Of a stretch of DNA of 31,886 nt, positions 2,740-24,109 are shown one piece after another. The notes below the pieces were generated by a model, which was not told where the DNA came from, did no database searches, and was given only the letters and a program-made list of their open reading frames with translations. A program made the translations under genes and the position numbers. How positions within the stretch are numbered: position 1 is the stretch's first letter; each line of letters starts with the position of its first letter. This stretch comes from a virus, in the IMG/VR virus record IMGVR_UViG_3300036930_000262, positions 1 to 31,886 of that record. One strand, written 5' to 3'.

Positions 2740-3204
2740 ATGGAAGACGAAAACGACAAGATTTGGGTTTGGCCGTTGGCGGCGATGGCGATAGTGGCGC
2801 TCGCTGCCGTTGTGGGCAGCTTCTGGACGCAACATCATCAGCGCGCGTCGTTGCGTGCGGCTGAGCCTCCCCCTTACATACAAAGCTCCGACCTAGGCTT
2901 AGCCGTGCCCAGTCCACCGCACGCCTCGGAGTGCTTCGATGTGCAGCTCTCAAAGGTGAGCGCGGCCCAATTTCGAATGACGGGGTACAACCATTGCGCT
3001 GTTACGCTGCCAACTGTGGTTGTCCTTGTCAAATTCTTCGACGGGCAGGGCAGGCGGGTCGGGGTCGGATCGTTCGCTTCCTTTTACGTGGCTGCTCACG
3101 AGAAGGAAATGCATGTGTTCCCGGCGCCGCCGGAGGTTTGGGGACTCTTCAGTAGAGTGGCAGTGCGGGAGATCACGGAGGACCTGAGCGAGGCGCGGAA
3201 ATGA
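2740..3204 (+). CDS. Membrane-anchored hypothetical protein
   Basis: 154 residues with a single N-terminal transmembrane segment (WVWPLAAMAIVALAAVVG, about residues 9-26) preceded by a short acidic start, so probably N-in with the rest outside the cytoplasm. The remainder looks like one small beta-rich domain with two Cys (ECFDVQ and YNHCAV) that could form a disulfide. The pattern of polar-hydrophobic strands (VVVLVKFFDGQGRRVGVGSFASFYV) resembles FxLyD-type extracellular domains, but this is only a resemblance. AAGGAGCG upstream serves as ribosome-binding site. It overlaps the next start by 4 bp. A role in superinfection exclusion is possible but unsupported. Confidence 0.7.
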   Translation: MEDENDKIWVWPLAAMAIVALAAVVGSFWTQHHQRASLRAAEPPPYIQSSDLGLAVPSPPHASECFDVQLSKVSAAQFRMTGYNHCAVTLPTVVVLVKFFDGQGRRVGVGSFASFYVAAHEKEMHVFPAPPEVWGLFSRVAVREITEDLSEARK

Positions 3205-3368
3205 ACGGTGTCACCTTAGCCGACGCCTGGGCCTCGCGCGCCGCCGACTACCTCGCGTCGCGCCGGGCCGCGCGCGTCGTCAAGCTAAACGTAGTCAGTT
3301 TGAATGACGCCTGGGCCTCGCGCGCCGCGGACTACCTTGCATCGCGCCGGGCCGCGCGCGTCGTCAAG
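3201..3368 (+). repeat. 84-bp in-frame tandem duplication
   Basis: Bases 3201-3284 and 3285-3368 encode two copies of a 28-residue unit. The last 63 bp of each copy differ at only a few positions, while the first 21 bp have diverged more. The duplication is therefore recent but not brand new. Confidence 0.85.
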
Positions 3369-3620
3369 CCGCGGGCGGTCACCGCCGAGCCCTATCGGCG
3401 GCCGCCCTGTGAGCCGGGCGAACGGCGGCAGGAGCTCTCGCCGCGGCTGTGCGGGATCTGCCTGCTGGTCAGCGAGGGCAAGACGAACCGCGACATCGCG
3501 GAGGCTCTCGATCTGTCCGAAGGCACCGTTAGGGTCTATGTTTCAAAGACGCTCCAGATTTTGGGCTTCCACTCGCGCAACCAGATCATCATGTGGTATC
3601 TGAAAGGCGGCAAGCTATGA
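3201..3620 (+). CDS. LuxR/GerE HTH protein with duplicated N-terminus
   Basis: The C-terminal 60 or so residues (from ELSPRLCGICLLVSEGKTN to the end) match the LuxR-type helix-turn-helix pattern: LSPR start, GKTNRDIAEALDLSEGTVRVYV recognition unit and LGFHSRNQII final helix. The first 56 residues are two near-identical copies of a 28-residue unit containing DAWASRAADYLASRRAARVVK. The repeated unit is a strongly basic helix, so the copy number may change DNA affinity or oligomer state. The gene overlaps both neighbours by 4 bp (ATGA type). A role in timing the early-to-middle switch is an inference from its position just upstream of the sigma factor. Confidence 0.85.
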   Translation: MNGVTLADAWASRAADYLASRRAARVVKLNVVSLNDAWASRAADYLASRRAARVVKPRAVTAEPYRRPPCEPGERRQELSPRLCGICLLVSEGKTNRDIAEALDLSEGTVRVYVSKTLQILGFHSRNQIIMWYLKGGKL

Positions 3621-17024: not shown

Positions 17025-17039
17025 GGCGAATGCCCCGGT
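17025..17039 (+). promoter_or_regulatory. Start-proximal motif before the GNAT gene
   Basis: GGCGAATG (17025-17032), CCCCGGT, then two more bases before the ATG at 17042. This is the one case with a 9-nt gap. GGGGC-GAAT-GCCCC can also fold as a tetraloop hairpin here (17023-17036). Confidence 0.4.
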
Positions 17040-17041
17040 AT

Positions 17042-17866
17042 ATGGCCATCGAACTCGTCGAGCCGTTCCCTGCGATGTACTGGCCGCTGGCGTGGGCGTG
17101 GCTCGATGCCGCGCGCTCGCAGGCGTGCGACGACTTCTCTCCCAAGACCCCCGAAGAATTTGTCGAATTACATCTTGAGGCCTGCCGGGGCTGGCGCTCG
17201 TTCGGCGTGTTGCGGGACGGGCAGCTCGGCGGGGTGATTCTGTTTGAGCCGGCGTCGCCGGCGCTGGCGATCATGCACGTGCTGTATGCGCGGCGCATGT
17301 GGGGGAAAGAAACGGTGGCGGCGTCGCGGATGGCGTGCGCGCGGCTGTTCGAATCGACCGAGGTTGGGAAGATTTTGGGCCTGGTGCCGGCCAACAACCG
17401 GCTGGCGATCGCGCTGGCAGTGCGGGGCGGGGGAAAGGTCGAGGGGGTCCTGCGGCAGCACTCGCGGCGGGACGGGAAACCGCTCGACGCGGTAGCGGTG
17501 GGGATCACGAGGGAGGATTTCAATGGGACTGAGCTTCGGCGGAACGACGACGGACAGCAATGCAAAAGCGCAAACGCTGCCCGCGATGAATCCTCTACAG
17601 GGATCGCTGCAACAGACGCTCTCGAGCGTACTCCAATCGCTGGTGCCGGCGGTGGGGAGCGGGGGGATCTCGCCGAACGTCCAGGCGACGCAGACGGCGG
17701 CCGACAACGAGACGAACCAGAACTACTCGTCGCTGGGAACGCGCATGAACCGGTTCCTGGCCGCGCGCGGGTTCGGGCAAAGCGGGCAAGCGGGGCAAAC
17801 GCAGCTCCAGACCGAGCTGTCAAGGCAGGGCGCGATCGGAAAAAACGCGTCCAACGCGGCAAATAG
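17042..17866 (+). CDS. GNAT-like acetyltransferase with long overlap of the next gene
   Basis: The first 160 residues or so have a GNAT layout: WRSFGVLRDGQLGGVILFEP (beta-2 to beta-4), ALAIMHVLYARRMWGKETVAASRMACARLFES (acetyl-CoA-binding region and helix 3) and KILGLVPANNRLAIALAVRGGGKVEGVLR (beta-5 with NN-A helix and beta-6). GNAT proteins of this type are encoded near tail genes in several podoviruses, with unknown targets. After about residue 160 the frame continues for 115 residues that are Arg/Gly/Asp-rich and look like an out-of-frame read of the gene at 17523. The frame has no earlier stop, so either the tail is a non-functional appendage or translation ends early by another means. An alternative start is the ATG at 17030. 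Confidence 0.65.
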   Translation: MAIELVEPFPAMYWPLAWAWLDAARSQACDDFSPKTPEEFVELHLEACRGWRSFGVLRDGQLGGVILFEPASPALAIMHVLYARRMWGKETVAASRMACARLFESTEVGKILGLVPANNRLAIALAVRGGGKVEGVLRQHSRRDGKPLDAVAVGITREDFNGTELRRNDDGQQCKSANAARDESSTGIAATDALERTPIAGAGGGERGDLAERPGDADGGRQRDEPELLVAGNAHEPVPGRARVRAKRASGANAAPDRAVKAGRDRKKRVQRGK

Positions 17867-17987
17867 CCAGCTCGGCCTCGACACGGGCTTTCTGTCGGAC
17901 GCGCTGAATTTCGCGTTCAACACGCCGGGATCGATTTCGAGCGGGACGACGACGGGATCGAGCGCAGGCGCGAGTTTCGCGGTATAA
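17523..17987 (+). CDS. Small Gln/Ser-rich virion-like protein
   Basis: 154 residues with GGGAGG six bases upstream of the ATG at 17523. This is strong support for the start even though it lies inside the longer GNAT frame. The sequence is rich in Gln, Ser, Thr and Asn with amphipathic helices (LQQTLSSVLQSLVP, NETNQNYSSLGTRMNRFLAARGFG), a composition found in internal or ejection virion proteins of podoviruses. The stop is 1 bp from the next gene. No family was identified. It probably belongs with the next two genes in a DNA-ejection group. Confidence 0.75.
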   Translation: MGLSFGGTTTDSNAKAQTLPAMNPLQGSLQQTLSSVLQSLVPAVGSGGISPNVQATQTAADNETNQNYSSLGTRMNRFLAARGFGQSGQAGQTQLQTELSRQGAIGKNASNAANSQLGLDTGFLSDALNFAFNTPGSISSGTTTGSSAGASFAV

Positions 17988-17988
17988 C

Positions 17989-19506
17989 ATGGCGCAATTT
18001 GCACCCATGATGAGCGCCGAGAATCCGTACAGCGGGCCGGCAGCCGACGCGTTCCGCACCGCGATGGGCCTGGCCGCAGGTCTGCGCGCGGAGGCGGCCA
18101 AGGGACAGCAGGCGGACCAGGCGGCGGCGCAGAAAACGCTCAAAGATAAGTTCGACACCGAGTTGAACTTGAGGAAAGAAGGCTACACCCCCTTCGATGC
18201 CTCGGAGAATTCGACCGCGCCGGGGCCGAACGGCGGACGGAGCCTCCATGTCCCGGATGGCGCCGCCGTCCCGGAGCGAGGCGTGCGGACAGCGCCGCCG
18301 AGCCAGGTGATTACCGATCCTTTCGGGCGGCAGTGGCTGGCGCCCGGCGCCAAACCTGACGCGACGCCTCAGCAGAGTTTCACAGACACCCAGGAGCTGG
18401 ACAAGCAGGGTGGCCGGCCGATCTCGGCTGAGGGGACCGTGGCGCAGCACACCGATATACCGCGCTTTCGGCAGGATGCTCAGGGCAACGTGAGCGATAC
18501 CGGCATGTTCGGCATCAACGGGCCAGTAGAGGATCCGTCGCGGGTGCGCACCGTGCCGGGCAGTGGGCAGCAGTTCTACCTGCCGACCGAGGGCGAGAAG
18601 ACGGCCGAGAGCGGCCGGGCGGCGGCGTCCAAGACCAAAGCGGAAGAGGACGCCAAGAACCTTACGCTGCCGGATTCCATCACGGCGAAGTGGGAGCAGA
18701 AGGCGGGCGTGCCGGCGGGGTCGCTGAAGGGCCTGGCCGTGCCGCGGTCGGAAGCGGTGAACGTGCTCAAGTCACTGGCTGATCCGTCGCAGAAGGCGCC
18801 GCACATCGAAACGCAAAAGGACGATGTGGGGAACGTGACCACCGTCGCGCGGGACGCGGAGAGCGGGAAAGAGCTTTGGCGGACGGTGGATAAGGGCATC
18901 GGGGAGAACAAGGCGAAGGACCGCGCGGCGGCGCAGGCCGATCGGGACGATGCGCGCCGGCAACGCGAGGCAGACGCGAATCAGAAGATCGTCGATACGC
19001 TGGACAGCAAGCGCGAGGCTTTGACGGGCCAGGCGGACCAGCAGCGGCAACTCCTCAACGAATACCAGCGCGCGATCGGGACGCCGAACGGCACGTTGTT
19101 TACCGATCCGACGGATAAGAACCGGGCACAGCGGCCGATGAACGCGGCGGCGCGTACGCGCATGGGCGAAGCCTTTATGCGCGTGAAGAGCAAGGCGGAC
19201 GATCTCGACAAGCAGGCGACTACGTTCGGACAGCAGGCGGAGGCGCGCAGGAACGGGCCGCAGCAGGCGGCGGCCGCTAGCCAGCCGAAACCGGCAGCGG
19301 CGCCCGCGCGACAGGCTGCCGCGCCACCGGAGACCCCCGCTACGGCGCCGTACAGGCCCGCGGCGGCGGCCGGGGCGGCTAAGGGGTCCCAGGCCACCAC
19401 GCTGGCCAAGGTGCGGGCCTACGCGAAGGCGCAGGGCATCAGCGAGGCCGAAGCCATCCGCGCGGCCAAAGGCGAAGGCTTCAGCATCGCCGGGTTGGGG
19501 CATTAA
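17989..19506 (+). CDS. Coiled-coil internal virion-type protein
   Basis: 505 residues. It begins with an Ala-rich helix (FRTAMGLAAGLRAEAAKGQQADQAAAQ), then a polar, Pro/Gly-rich region, then a charged helical region (AAAQADRDDARRQREADANQKIVDTLDSKREALTGQADQQRQLL, about residues 310-355). The C-terminal segment (SQATTLAKVRAYAKAQGISEAEAIRAAKGEGFSIAGLGH) looks like a small helical domain similar to those that end phage ejection proteins. Position between the small virion-like gene and the 1533-residue protein suggests an internal virion or ejection role. No family was recognised. Confidence 0.65.
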   Translation: MAQFAPMMSAENPYSGPAADAFRTAMGLAAGLRAEAAKGQQADQAAAQKTLKDKFDTELNLRKEGYTPFDASENSTAPGPNGGRSLHVPDGAAVPERGVRTAPPSQVITDPFGRQWLAPGAKPDATPQQSFTDTQELDKQGGRPISAEGTVAQHTDIPRFRQDAQGNVSDTGMFGINGPVEDPSRVRTVPGSGQQFYLPTEGEKTAESGRAAASKTKAEEDAKNLTLPDSITAKWEQKAGVPAGSLKGLAVPRSEAVNVLKSLADPSQKAPHIETQKDDVGNVTTVARDAESGKELWRTVDKGIGENKAKDRAAAQADRDDARRQREADANQKIVDTLDSKREALTGQADQQRQLLNEYQRAIGTPNGTLFTDPTDKNRAQRPMNAAARTRMGEAFMRVKSKADDLDKQATTFGQQAEARRNGPQQAAAASQPKPAAAPARQAAAPPETPATAPYRPAAAAGAAKGSQATTLAKVRAYAKAQGISEAEAIRAAKGEGFSIAGLGH

Positions 19507-19507
19507 T

Positions 19508-22500
19508 GTGGCGGACCAGAGCTTCAGCTCGTTTGTCGCCCAGGACCAGAGCGAGGCGGCGGCGGCCCCGCCCCGCCAGGCTTTCGGCGATTGGCTAAAG
19601 GCCGGCGCCGCTACGCCGACGACCAGCGGAGTCACCGCCGGCGGCCATAGCTACACCGCGCCGAAGATCTCCGACACGCTCGGCGATCCCAACGCCATCA
19701 ACGCGCAGACCTGGCAGGCCGCGCGAGTAGCCGCGAAAGCGATGACGGACCCCGCGCGGTTCGCGCCCGGCCCCTCGCTCGCCGATCGCGTGCGCACGAT
19801 CGCCGGGCAAGCCGGCCAGGTGGCCACCACGCACGCCGTGAAGGCGCTGGGTGGATCCACCATGACCGAGCTATGGGACATGGCCGGCCAATCCGCTAAA
19901 AGTCTCGTCGAGCATGTGACCGGCGAGAACTGGGAAGCCACGCGCGCGACGCTGCCCGCGCCGGCGAAGACCGCCGAATTCCTATTTCACGCGAGTAAGA
20001 TCATCCCCGGCATCGTCGATTTCCTGTTTACACCGCTTGGCGCGGCGACCGGACCCGCGGCCGAGTTGGGCGGCCCCGCCGCGCAGGCCGCCATCGGCGC
20101 AGCCTTTGGAACACAGATGGCGGGCGCCACGAAGGACGCCTACAAAAACTACAAAAAGACACCGTCCGCCTCGAGCGCAGGCGACCTGGTGGCCAGCGCC
20201 GCGGGTACACTCTTGCCGGCGGTCCACGCGGCCGGTACCGAATATCAGAACCAGGTGCGCGCGGCTTATATCGAGCGCGCGCGCGGCCCGGCACAGGAAT
20301 ACACGAGCACGGGCGAGCCCATACGGCGCGCTGGATCGGAGAACACACATGAAGAGTCCACTCGCACGACCGGGGCGCAAGAGCAGCCCCAAACAGTCGC
20401 AGGTCCGCAAGGGCAGCCTCATCGAGGCGCTGAACCAGGCGGCGGGAGCCAAGGACCGGCCAACGGCGCGGCCGGCGCTGCCGCCCCGGAGGTAGCGAAT
20501 GATAACCGTAGCGGTGGAAGTGTCGGGCAACCGCCCGGCGGCACTGGAGGAGATCGAGGACCTGGCGGGGCACAACCGCCTGTACCGGAAGGGAACGAAC
20601 ACGGCCCTGTATTTGGACTGCCCGGACCGGGCAACGGCGGGACTGCTGGCGCTCAACCTGGGGCTGATTCCGGGAGTGACGGCGGGAATCTTCGGCGGGT
20701 GACCGGTTCGGCCGATCTACCGCTGACTCCGGACGGGAAAGCGAACGCGGCCAAGCGGAATGTGCCGGCGGACGTGCAAGTGTTCCATGCGCCCAACCAA
20801 CGGTCGGAGGGGACGGCGCGCGGCGCCAGCGCGGGCGCGCGGCCGGCGAGCTGGCTGGCACCGTGGAAGCTGGGCGAGCACGAAGGGAAACCGGTAGAGG
20901 AGGCGCAGCCGGCGATCGATGAGCTGATGCGCAACCCGGGGCGAGCGCCCGGCGTGAGCGCGCACTCGGGCGAACAGGGCGAGAGCTTCGGGGCCGCGTC
21001 GCGGCGGCTTATCGACGGGGCCAACGCGCAGTACCGAGGGATCGGGCCGAACGATAAGGTCCTCAACATCACTTCCGGCAGGGCGCTGCAGATTATCGAC
21101 GCCAACGGAGATCCGGAAAGGATTATCGGGCGGCGGAAGGAGTTCCAGCGCGGGCAGATCTACCGGCGGACGGCGGAGGGGCTGACGCCGGCGGACCGCA
21201 TCGTTCCGGGGACTCAGAACTTCACGACGCATGAAGATACGGCGTGGAACCCGAGCAAGAAGGCAGGCGGGCCGGCCGTGCCGGCGGAAGGCCCAAACGG
21301 GCCGATTTGGCAGGAGTACTCCGGAAAGCCCGCGGAGGCCATCGCCAAGCTACAGCAGGAACAGCGGGGCGAAGTTCCGCGCGTATGGCGGAACGAGGAT
21401 CTGGCCAGGGCGACGAACACGGACGGCTGGATTGGCTTGATCTGGGGCGATCTGAAGGGCGGCCTGGCGCACATCGTCGACAAACACGTTATCAGGCAGA
21501 AGGACCTGAAGCTCGAAGACCTTGCCGAGATGATTCCCCGGATGCGGGTGGCGGAGAACGACGGGCGGTCCGTAGTCCTGGAGAGCGACACGCACAGGGC
21601 GACCGTTCGATTGAGCTACGACGATGTAGAGAAGCGCTGGCTGGTGACAGCGTTTGAGAAGAGGCCATCTACCGGAGAGAGTCCAACCGGCCCCGGATCC
21701 CCGAATCGGGGTGGCGGCCCGGTCATTGCGCCGCCAAACGGCCCTTCGGTTCCTCCGGCTCCCGAGGGAAGCGGCGGTGCACCTGGTTCCAGTGTGGCTC
21801 CGGGGGGCGGCGCAGTCAAGCGGGTGGATCCGCTGCTCGGGACGCACGTGGATCCCAGCGCGGTGCGGCAATTCTTTGGCGACGAGACGGGGACCTCGCT
21901 GGTGGGGTCCATCCTCAGGGCCGACGCGAAAGAGGCGCTGGCTCTGAAGGCCAAGCGCGATGCGGCGCTGGCGGAGGTCGAGAAAGCCAAGGGCACGCCC
22001 GGGGAACAAAAGTTCGGGCAGAAAACCATCCACTATTTCACGGGCGAGCGCGATCTGTGGGGCGCACGGGTTAACCAGGTGATCGCGCGGTTGCGCAAGA
22101 TGGTTCCGGATCACGTCGAGCAGGAAGCGATCTCGCTGATGCGCGACTTCAAGGGGCGCGAGCAAGAGCTGACACAATTCCTGGCCGGGACGCACCCGGC
22201 GTTTCAGGACCTCGATTCGAAGCAGCCGCTGATGCGCGGGCTGGCGGGATCGGAAACGGCCACGGCGCGGGAACGCATCGAGCAGTTGCGGCCGGCGATC
22301 CTGCGGGCGCTCGATCCGACGCCGCGCATGAGGGAGGCGGACGCGGTATTGAGCAAGATTGCGGCGGGGACGCTGGCGGAGGGGCAGCGGCTGGGGATTC
22401 TGGAGAGCCGGTGGACGCCGGAGCAGTACAACCCGCACATCCTGCATCCCAAGGGCGAGGGCGAAGTGCCAACCGCGCCGGCGGGAGACCGCGTGGGGCG

Positions 22501-24109
22501 CGCGATCGGCGGCAAGATGTCGCGCTACTTCGCGTTCGCCGAGACGCGGCAGTTCCCGACGCTGCTCGACGCGGTGGTGAATAACTACCGGCCGAAGACG
22601 CTCAACGCATTCGACGCGTTCACAATTCACGGGGATAAGTTCGCGACGGCGCGGGCGACGCACATCCTGACCGGGCTGCTCTCGAACGAAGGCGCTGGCA
22701 AGTGGGGGGTCAAAGAGAACGCGCCGGAGGGCTGGGTCCCACTGGCCGCGCACTCGACCGAGTTCCGGAACCTGGTGGGGTACGCCGATCCGGAGGGATT
22801 GCCGGCAGCGGCCGAGCAGCGGCTGTTTGTGCCGCAGTTCATCTCCGATGCGCTCCGGCCGATCACCGATCCCGATTACATGGGGCGCGTTCCGCTGTTT
22901 CGCGCGATGCGTATGACGCAGGCGTATCAGAAGGCCGTGCAGCTCGGGCTGAGTTTCTTCCACGCGTACACCGAGAATTTGATGGCGCTGGCCAATATGG
23001 GGCCAACCGGGTGGGTAAAGGCCTTGCGCGCGAACCGCGAGAGTCCGGAGTTCCTACTGGCAGAGCGGGACATGATCGCGCACGGAGGAACCAGCGCGAT
23101 CCAGGGCCACACGTTCGACGCGTATCGCGCGCTCGAACCCGGGTCGATTCCGACGTGGAGCGATATCTGGAGGCGCGCGCCGGTGCTCCACCAGGCGGAC
23201 GCGCTGGCGGGCAAGATTACGGATTTCACATTCGGGAATTTGCAGCGGCGCTTCAAGGTGACTGATTACCAGGTGCACCTGGTGGGGTGGCTGGCCAAGC
23301 ATCCGGAGGCCTCGGCCATGGAGACCTCGGCGGCCAAACAGTCGATGGCCAAAGAAGTGAACGCCGTCTATGGCGGGCTGAACTGGGAAAACCTGGGGGT
23401 GAACCGGGCCACCACGGAGATCGTACGGGCGCTGATGCTGGCGCCGGATTGGACGTTCAGCAACGTGTTCAACGTGAAGTACGCGGCGGAGCGGGGAACG
23501 CCGGCGGGGCGGATGGCGCGCATGTTCTGGATCCGCACGATCGCCGGCGGGCTGGCGGCGACGCAGGGGCTGAGCCTGATGCTTTCGGGGAAGCCTTCGA
23601 AGAATCTGACGCAGGTTTACTTCGGGACGGACGCGGACGGCGAGGACGTGTATCAGAACGTGTTCTTCAAAGGCGCAGGCGGCGACGCGGTGAACTTGGT
23701 TCACAACATGCTGGACTACGGGGGAGTGCAGGGTCTGGCGCGCTCGCTCGTGGGCAAGGCGGCGCCTCTGCTGCGCGCGGGCCTCCAGGTGGTACACAAC
23801 CAGGACTTCCTAGGGCGCACGATCGTGCCCAAGGGAATGAACCCAGTGGCCGGCACGGTGCGCGCAGCCCTCAAGACTGGTGAGGCGCTGGCGCCGGTTC
23901 CCTTCACGGTGGAGAACCTGTACAACATGTTGCTGGGACCGGACGCGGGGAAGTATAGCGTGCCGGAGTTCCTGACCACGACGGTGGCGGGCAATCCGCC
24001 GCGGCATGTGGCGCCGGAGGGTTACCGGGAAACGAGCCGCGGCCTGGTTCCGGAGAACGCGCCGGAGAACCAATCGATCTGGGATGAGATCCAGACGGGG
24101 AAGCGGTAA
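19508..24109 (+). CDS. Large polyvalent protein (LPP) with PBECR nuclease-like and histidine-phosphatase-like parts
   Basis: 1533 residues, GTG start. Order: residues 1-280, virion-type helical region; about 281-397, Gly/Pro/Gln-rich linker; about 398-545, histidine-phosphatase-like domain; about 600-725, PBECR-like nuclease fold (HIVDKH with His655 and His660, closing KRWLVTAFEK near 711); 725-790, second Pro/Gly linker; about 790-1533, helical large-polyvalent-protein-associated region. Such proteins are thought to be injected with phage DNA and to act on host defences or metabolism. The phosphatase part keeps Arg432 (APNQRSEGTA) and GEHEG (456-460). It lacks the RHG His, and the second catalytic His is replaced by Ser in ITSGR, so it is probably catalytically dead. 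A GTG at 20699 (codon 398) could start a separate 1136-residue product. Two small genes overlap the first linker in another frame. Confidence 0.8.
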   Translation: MADQSFSSFVAQDQSEAAAAPPRQAFGDWLKAGAATPTTSGVTAGGHSYTAPKISDTLGDPNAINAQTWQAARVAAKAMTDPARFAPGPSLADRVRTIAGQAGQVATTHAVKALGGSTMTELWDMAGQSAKSLVEHVTGENWEATRATLPAPAKTAEFLFHASKIIPGIVDFLFTPLGAATGPAAELGGPAAQAAIGAAFGTQMAGATKDAYKNYKKTPSASSAGDLVASAAGTLLPAVHAAGTEYQNQVRAAYIERARGPAQEYTSTGEPIRRAGSENTHEESTRTTGAQEQPQTVAGPQGQPHRGAEPGGGSQGPANGAAGAAAPEVANDNRSGGSVGQPPGGTGGDRGPGGAQPPVPEGNEHGPVFGLPGPGNGGTAGAQPGADSGSDGGNLRRVTGSADLPLTPDGKANAAKRNVPADVQVFHAPNQRSEGTARGASAGARPASWLAPWKLGEHEGKPVEEAQPAIDELMRNPGRAPGVSAHSGEQGESFGAASRRLIDGANAQYRGIGPNDKVLNITSGRALQIIDANGDPERIIGRRKEFQRGQIYRRTAEGLTPADRIVPGTQNFTTHEDTAWNPSKKAGGPAVPAEGPNGPIWQEYSGKPAEAIAKLQQEQRGEVPRVWRNEDLARATNTDGWIGLIWGDLKGGLAHIVDKHVIRQKDLKLEDLAEMIPRMRVAENDGRSVVLESDTHRATVRLSYDDVEKRWLVTAFEKRPSTGESPTGPGSPNRGGGPVIAPPNGPSVPPAPEGSGGAPGSSVAPGGGAVKRVDPLLGTHVDPSAVRQFFGDETGTSLVGSILRADAKEALALKAKRDAALAEVEKAKGTPGEQKFGQKTIHYFTGERDLWGARVNQVIARLRKMVPDHVEQEAISLMRDFKGREQELTQFLAGTHPAFQDLDSKQPLMRGLAGSETATARERIEQLRPAILRALDPTPRMREADAVLSKIAAGTLAEGQRLGILESRWTPEQYNPHILHPKGEGEVPTAPAGDRVGRAIGGKMSRYFAFAETRQFPTLLDAVVNNYRPKTLNAFDAFTIHGDKFATARATHILTGLLSNEGAGKWGVKENAPEGWVPLAAHSTEFRNLVGYADPEGLPAAAEQRLFVPQFISDALRPITDPDYMGRVPLFRAMRMTQAYQKAVQLGLSFFHAYTENLMALANMGPTGWVKALRANRESPEFLLAERDMIAHGGTSAIQGHTFDAYRALEPGSIPTWSDIWRRAPVLHQADALAGKITDFTFGNLQRRFKVTDYQVHLVGWLAKHPEASAMETSAAKQSMAKEVNAVYGGLNWENLGVNRATTEIVRALMLAPDWTFSNVFNVKYAAERGTPAGRMARMFWIRTIAGGLAATQGLSLMLSGKPSKNLTQVYFGTDADGEDVYQNVFFKGAGGDAVNLVHNMLDYGGVQGLARSLVGKAAPLLRAGLQVVHNQDFLGRTIVPKGMNPVAGTVRAALKTGEALAPVPFTVENLYNMLLGPDAGKYSVPEFLTTTVAGNPPRHVAPEGYRETSRGLVPENAPENQSIWDEIQTGKR
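20349..20495 (+). CDS. Small basic protein nested in the LPP linker
   Basis: 48 residues in a frame different from the LPP, with GGAGA seven bases before the ATG. It is Lys/Arg/Ser/Pro-rich (MKSPLARPGRKSSPKQSQVRKG) and then a short helix (SLIEALNQAAGAKDR). It is followed, after 3 bp, by the next nested gene in the same frame. The Shine-Dalgarno sequence and the tandem arrangement support it. Against it are its short length and the fact that the LPP linker is low-complexity, so any frame over it may look open. Confidence 0.5.
   Translation: MKSPLARPGRKSSPKQSQVRKGSLIEALNQAAGAKDRPTARPALPPRR
20499..20702 (+). CDS. Small protein nested in the LPP linker
   Basis: 67 residues with GGAGG eight bases upstream of the ATG. 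The sequence has ordinary protein character: an N-terminal strand MITVAVEVSG, a helix ALEEIEDLAGHN, a strand TALYLDCP and a hydrophobic helix TAGLLALNLGLIPGVTAGIFGG. The stop forms a 4-bp GTGA overlap with the possible internal start at 20699 in the LPP frame, the same coupling style used elsewhere in this genome. The LPP frame over this stretch is only Gly/Pro linker. No family was recognised. A short regulatory or membrane-associated role is possible. Confidence 0.6.
   Translation: MITVAVEVSGNRPAALEEIEDLAGHNRLYRKGTNTALYLDCPDRATAGLLALNLGLIPGVTAGIFGG

Follow-up and report, generated by a model that had tools for sequence, protein, structure and literature searches.

The analysed window is the whole stretch of 31,886 bp of this virus record, in which genes for an integrase, a large terminase, a head-tail adaptor and a major head protein are present. 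On its plus strand a large ORF (19508-24109, GTG start) encodes a polyvalent protein of 1533 aa, laid out as an N-terminal part A, a linker, a permuted histidine-phosphatase-like domain D, a PBECR1 nuclease-like domain and a long conserved C-terminal part, which is 80% identical in the related locus L002. Pfam matches to PBECR1 (7e-07; residues 640-719, 21425-21664, plus strand) and His_Phos_1 (7.3e-06) indicate that several effector-type domains are combined in one large phage protein, as is characteristic of polyvalent proteins, and ddrB-ParB, Zeta_toxin and His_Phos_1 domains were detected in the large proteins of the relatives. For the related proteins P1 DarB and JC1 gp69, packaging and injection with the DNA are known (PMC6630229, PMC9144972). 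Over 20349-20702 (plus strand) the large frame encodes a linker rich in Gly, Pro, Gln and Ala, bearing out its original description as Gly/Pro/Gln-rich, and a second Gly/Pro-rich linker is located at 21677-21874. Elsewhere in the window, 3201-3620 encodes a small protein with two near-identical 'DAWASRAADYLASRRAARVVK' copies, followed by what looks by eye like a LuxR-type HTH end.

Within the first linker, two small genes are aligned in tandem, both in the +1 frame relative to the 1533-aa ORF, wholly inside it, and each with its own Shine-Dalgarno sequence as read from the DNA. Gene B (20349-20495, plus strand; ATG at 20349, TAG at 20493-20495) encodes 48 aa, a basic and Pro-rich product with the core KGSLIEALNQA, and is preceded by GGAGA at 20338-20342 (plus strand). 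Gene C (20499-20702, plus strand; ATG at 20499, TGA at 20700-20702) encodes 67 aa, and its GGAGG (20488-20492, plus strand) lies within the end of B, the spacer between the two genes being exactly 3 bp (CGA, 20496-20498). The original prediction of two tandem small frames thus holds in all its coordinates, both ribosome-binding motifs and the 3-bp spacing. A local assembly error at B-C was ruled out because a Bryobacterales (Acidobacteriota) MAG contig is 100% identical to the window over 17715-21350, and because relatives show the same layout. The last 22-23 bases of this contig (L004) jump from window position 21350 back to 20324-20346, just before gene B, representing either an assembly artefact or a variant.

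Downstream of the linker, domain D (20693-21250, plus strand), which begins with RRVTGS, is continuous with the large ORF. The Val codon of RRVTGS lies over the TGA stop of C in the sequence GTGA (20699-20702, plus strand). This overlap had been predicted and does exist; the accompanying proposal that its in-frame GTG at 20699 starts the phosphatase-like part, giving a second product, is not supported. The equivalent codon in L014 is GTA (with TAA as the stop of C), which cannot start a protein, no Shine-Dalgarno sequence is present ahead of 20699, and in the fused relatives RRVTGS runs across this point, L003 among them, where no C is present at this place. The L014 and L003 sequences together exclude a conserved separate start of D. 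Relatives might have carried a stop between the two halves, but in every locus compared the large frame runs from A into D without one. Shifted to +1, the Val-Thr codons (GTN ACN) read TNA, so that GTG yields TGA and GTA yields TAA as the stop of C, and on the sequence evidence the GTGA overlap is a consequence of the conserved Val-Thr of RRVTGS. The catalytic RHG motif expected at the N-terminal strand of histidine phosphatase branch 1 is not at that position in D, which is permuted. The RHGET strand stands at the C-terminal end of the domain in L003 (6001-6636) and L012 (5660-6349), while the window reads THEDT in its place, indicating that the catalytic Arg has been lost in the window copy.

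The codon composition over the linker follows the small genes. In codon-position GC, a comparison suggested with the original prediction, a small-frame signal was detected over 20408-20708, where the pattern flips: in the large frame, GC at third positions drops from about 0.85 to 0.52-0.54, and at first positions it rises to 0.84-0.86. A codon model trained on the other genes of the phage gave, for three 99-bp windows of 20390-20686, scores of +11, +3 and +8 in the small frame and -8, -14 and -8 in the large frame. Elsewhere in the large ORF the large frame wins almost everywhere, and the frame switch coincides exactly with B-C before returning to the large frame.

The signal could in principle arise if only the large protein were translated and the small ORFs were a by-product of Gly/Pro/Ala-rich composition, with an open +1 frame and a GC-rich third position. 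Linkers rich in Gly, Pro, Ala and Gln indeed contain few Leu, Ile and Met codons, which create +1 stops; the resulting scarcity of such stops may explain why every nested gene is in the +1 frame. Third-position GC also dips somewhat in the control linker at 21677-21874, but there no frame has a positive codon score, indicating that linker composition alone does not give the frame signal. Synonymous shuffling argues in the same direction: the B and C ORFs were reproduced in none of 200 shuffles of the large protein of the window, and for 15 large genes 16 nested ORFs with ATG and Shine-Dalgarno were observed, all in +1, against 0.02 expected. In the other long genes of the same loci, used as a control (17,084 codons), no nested ORFs were found. 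Taken with the homology, the conservation, the near-universal start signals, the confidently predicted fold of C and its free-standing homologue described below, this makes translation of the large protein only a very improbable explanation.

Usable database relatives were not found for B and C. P0002 alone, searched against viral contigs, phages and plasmids, matched only the identical MAG copy, and searches with the gene at 17030-17866 and with part A, each alone, found no relatives. Relatives were reached only via the conserved C-terminal part of the large protein, giving 14 viral loci, and the genome loci L012 and L028 were reached by the same route. When their large ORFs were scanned, most proved to contain nested ORFs bearing an ATG and a Shine-Dalgarno sequence, nearly all of them in +1; this detection depends on codon bias and covered the interior of open large ORFs. 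Family HMMs were then searched against six-frame translations of the related loci. Seven other loci (six when identical copies are merged) carry B nested at the same junction, namely L002, L012/L023, L014, L016 and, outside the HMM training set, L015 and L037. C is nested behind B in L014, L015 and L037, always with the 3-bp spacing; L037 was found through domain D, was not used for the models and carries the B-C pair at the same place. Sites of the GGAG or GGGAG type precede the B starts of L002, L012, L014, L015 and L016, GGAGG precedes C at the equivalent place in L014 and L015, and a Shine-Dalgarno sequence precedes nearly all nested starts in the relatives and cultured phages.

A free-standing homologue of C, also outside the HMM training set, is located directly upstream of the large ORF of L003 (4905-5114; HMM E 2.3e-5; hhalign probability 91.5, 8e-7 against the C family). 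B is absent from L003, and no free-standing copy of B was found in the loci searched. A further match of C in genome G156 (36% over 55 aa, E 0.0041) was weak and was set aside as chance. The identity of the window C to those of L014, L015 and L037 is 58, 45 and 42%, compared with 38, 36 and 34% for the same bases read in the large frame; substitutions between these are near saturation and show little third-position excess. For B, L014 and L015 are 86% identical in the nested frame versus 62% in the large frame, and the differences at nested positions 1, 2 and 3 number 5, 6 and 17. The prediction of overprinted genes in the linker is therefore strongly supported by the homology of B and C in independent phages at the same junction and in the same +1 frame, and the contrary case, relatives that disrupt the small frames while keeping the linker, was not seen for the B-C pair.

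Selection on the two frames was examined over all nested genes. From the nested proteins and codon usage, 37.7 large-frame stops are expected over 21 nested genes and none was seen (log10 P about -18, a value inflated by the common descent of the loci); the third frame, in contrast, is usually interrupted by stops. Taken by itself, the window pair could well have an open large frame by chance (P 0.59 and 0.31), so the case for the large frame rests on the relatives. In six closer nested-gene pairs (one chosen pair per family and host group), the pooled differences at nested positions 1, 2 and 3 were 70, 64 and 126 (p 1e-6). The comparison of nested position 3 with position 2, which is the third position of the large frame, gave 126 versus 64 (p 4e-6), the opposite of what constraint on the large frame alone gives; these pooled P values are overstated because related loci are not independent samples. 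The excess at the nested third position and the absence of large-frame stops together indicate that both frames are constrained and kept by selection; for the large frame this holds across the relatives, not for the window alone. B and C thus have the features of a same-strand nested pair, each small ORF lying wholly inside the large one, with its own start signals and with both frames maintained across relatives.

The same data bear on the possibility that only the small genes are translated, the large frame being open by accident in GC-rich DNA, with A and D as separate proteins and D starting from GTG 20699. As this explanation would have it, the large frame has poor codon usage across the overlap, its openness in the window by itself has an appreciable probability under chance, and GTGA is a common coupling overlap. 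It is nevertheless very improbable, given the missing stops over the 21 nested genes, the GTA codon of L014, the conservation of RRVTGS upstream of 20699 in L003, the lack of a large-frame stop of its own for A in any locus compared, and the detection of full-length DarB-like protein in JC1 virions (PMC9144972).

Further nested families were identified in the relatives, all in +1. A family marked by 'NSPEFR' was found in seven loci, three of them in training (L018:8814, L022:8622, L024:8742, L019:8157, L015:9228 and L025:5432 among its positions), where it overlaps the end of a conserved upstream domain and is followed by variable downstream domains; a FlgM-like function for it (best E 0.0055) fell below the cut-off and is not claimed. 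A 'WTPEQLEKG' family is located in the linker before the ddrB-ParB domain in L002 (4397-4777) and L014 (8592-8759). Single nested +1 ORFs with good codon scores were detected at L024:9624-9845, L019:9717-9980, L016:9747-10019, L025:8147-8428, L017:6636-6821 and L048:8037, and no relatives of these six were found among the loci compared.

In cultured phages, a family of about 105 aa whose members begin with MNLNNW is nested in +1 within giant DarB-like genes. It is carried by LASTA, SopranoGao, Pavtok, PEp14, Stean, Itty13, POI1126, Atu_ph08, VvAW1 and Mwe-JY07 (positions L046:10551, L053:901, L048:10509, L051:901, L052:901, L044:10539, L045:10476, L033:11690, L047:7470 and L050:10446). With PBC5, described below, the hosts of its carriers are Klebsiella, Erwinia, Pseudomonas, Ochrobactrum, Agrobacterium, Sinorhizobium, Vibrio and Microcystis. 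Over 53,471 codons of cultured-phage genes, 10 nested genes were observed against 0.00 expected from synonymous shuffling. In GenBank, 21 records match the family and none of the 21 annotates a separate gene. No nested gene was found in BPP-1 bbp10 or in Pseudomonas phage 8P. The MNLNNW gene of Atu_ph08 ends a few bases ahead of a PBECR1 nuclease-like domain. The giant polyvalent ORF of Itty13 (L044:5525-17863, 4112 codons) is occupied in the GenBank annotation by three antisense genes. Similar-looking nested +1 ORFs of about 100 aa were also noted in the DarB-like genes of L034 (6683-7006, BcepMigl), its relatives L039-L042 and L043 (4465, Pseudoalteromonas Y7); in the Burkholderia lookalike, AAGGAGG or AAGGAGA precedes the ATG in five phages.

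PBC5 also carries the MNLNNW gene, but with a broken large frame, a case that counts against dual coding. There (L032:8425-9001) the nested gene marks a split in the giant ORF: its frame forms the tail of orf33, and the frame of PBECR1/orf23 is open across it; the split is either a sequencing error or real. The last 102 positions of phrog_938 match the nested family of cultured DarB-like genes, apparently because orf33 of PBC5 runs into that frame.

The product of C from the window was predicted by AF2, from three sequences, to form beta-alpha-beta-beta-alpha-beta with a pLDDT of 87, and the free-standing C of L003 gave the same secondary structure (pLDDT 90.3, five-sequence alignment). Both show the E-H-E-E-H-E element order of ferredoxin-like folds. 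Homology to a named family with this fold was not detected: Foldseek gave generic fold matches only (best 4e-3), searches of Pfam, NCBIfam and PDB gave nothing, and PHROG gave only a weak match (E 0.11). C is present in 5 of 6 loci with D and in none of 10 without D (Fisher p 0.0014), an association that is partly ascertained because D itself was the query that brought in some of the D loci. Because every genome bearing C has D, even L003, where C is not beside D, service to domain D may be the most likely role of C, a tentative assignment made from gene distribution. We propose that B and C are accessory proteins that act in the producing cell on their own polyvalent protein.

Altogether, the stretch is most probably dual-coding, the small genes sharing their bases with the linker of a fused polyvalent protein (probability about 0.88). 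Conservation of both frames, start signals, homology, a free-standing C and a predicted C fold were all obtained by computation; from these we infer the translation of B and C, their coupling, the order of events and their function. The large frame would encode a flexible linker joining part A to domain D in one fused protein, and the +1 frame would encode B and C as separate small proteins, made by internal initiation on the same polycistronic mRNA from their own Shine-Dalgarno sequences. With the Shine-Dalgarno of C inside the end of B and a gap of 3 bp, translational coupling of the two is probable. In the proposed history, A, B, C and D were once neighbours and A became joined to D across the small genes, so that the linker would be the other-frame reading of B and C; such a linker would tolerate dual reading because only its openness and flexibility matter. 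The small genes are probably older and the linker reading second, since the small frames have the normal codon usage of the phage (a criterion as used in PMC8227390) and C has a free-standing homologue. An original A, B, C, D order with later fusion, one of the two alternatives first put forward, is thus supported as history.

Two other histories were weighed for the same dual-coding arrangement. B and C may have entered a pre-existing linker together, as a complete cassette brought in by recombination, which agrees with the constant 3-bp spacing of the pair alongside different A types, with the maintenance of the B junction before different downstream domains, and with the joining of A to D without C in L003 and L012; every such event would need to preserve an open, in-phase large frame, and we consider this history unlikely. 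Alternatively, the small genes may have originated de novo, overprinted on a linker that was already there, instead of having been engulfed in a fusion. An internal position and the +1 direction, both seen here, typify de novo overlaps (PMC8227390), B is short, basic, of low complexity and without a free-standing copy in the loci searched, and L003, with A and D fused, lacks it. Against this, codon usage points to the small frames as the ancestral reading and to the linker as the derived one, a free-standing homologue of C exists and C is predicted to fold compactly, and the nested genes stay at the junction while the surrounding domains change, leaving de novo origin an unlikely alternative. 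Beyond this locus, the linkers of polyvalent proteins may be a general habitat of hidden genes, in which caught small genes stay functional in +1 and encode accessory or neutralising factors for the adjacent injected effector domains, a generalization for which we judge the odds to be even.

Annotation pipelines discard ORFs nested in longer ORFs, and an entire class of phage genes seems to have escaped notice in this way. Should these genes prove real, the proteins missed would form a recurrent class, with the family of about 105 aa in DarB-like genes among them, and experiments mutating or truncating DarB-like genes may have hit two genes at once. The fusion of A to D would offer a concrete comparative route for the origin of linkers in fused proteins, by reading across small genes, and the cultivable phages with genes nested in DarB-like genes allow direct tests of dual coding in linkers. 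An earlier report of this arrangement was not found in the literature searched, a scope that does not extend to Gill et al. 2011 (Bcep22). The words 'overlapping' and 'linker' are absent from PMC5512222, in which 'nested' and 'reading frame' are used for other matters, and a gene nested in DarB is unmentioned in the JC1 and Atu_ph08 papers.

Among known systems, same-strand nested genes include Rz1 and genes of phiX174. In the Rz/Rz1 spanins, a small gene with its own start lies in +1 fully inside a larger phage gene, and B and C are likewise small +1 genes inside a larger phage gene. In contrast to Rz1, B and C have no lipobox-like start, B having no Cys and the only Cys of C lying mid-protein, and they are located outside a lysis cassette, in a giant polyvalent gene of 1533 aa instead of an ORF for a small membrane protein. 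The embedded class of spanins has been noted for JC1 (PMC9144972). The large ORF itself resembles the polyvalent and DarB-like proteins (Iyer et al. 2017, PMC5512222) in being multidomain, with PBECR1 and other effector-type domains. The C-terminal end of phrog_938 is like the nested family of cultured DarB-like genes but is filed as the tail of a long 'endolysin', whereas elsewhere this family is a separate frame. The closest analogue is hepatitis B virus, in which a flexible spacer between two domains of the polymerase is overlapped by preS/S in another frame, and for which Pavesi has hypothesized an ancestral short S gene situated between separate genes of the two polymerase halves (PMC8227390). 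Here too a flexible spacer between domains appears to be read over short genes; hepatitis B virus, however, is an animal virus with a single case, whereas the present arrangement occurs in phages and involves several unrelated small genes and several linkers per protein.
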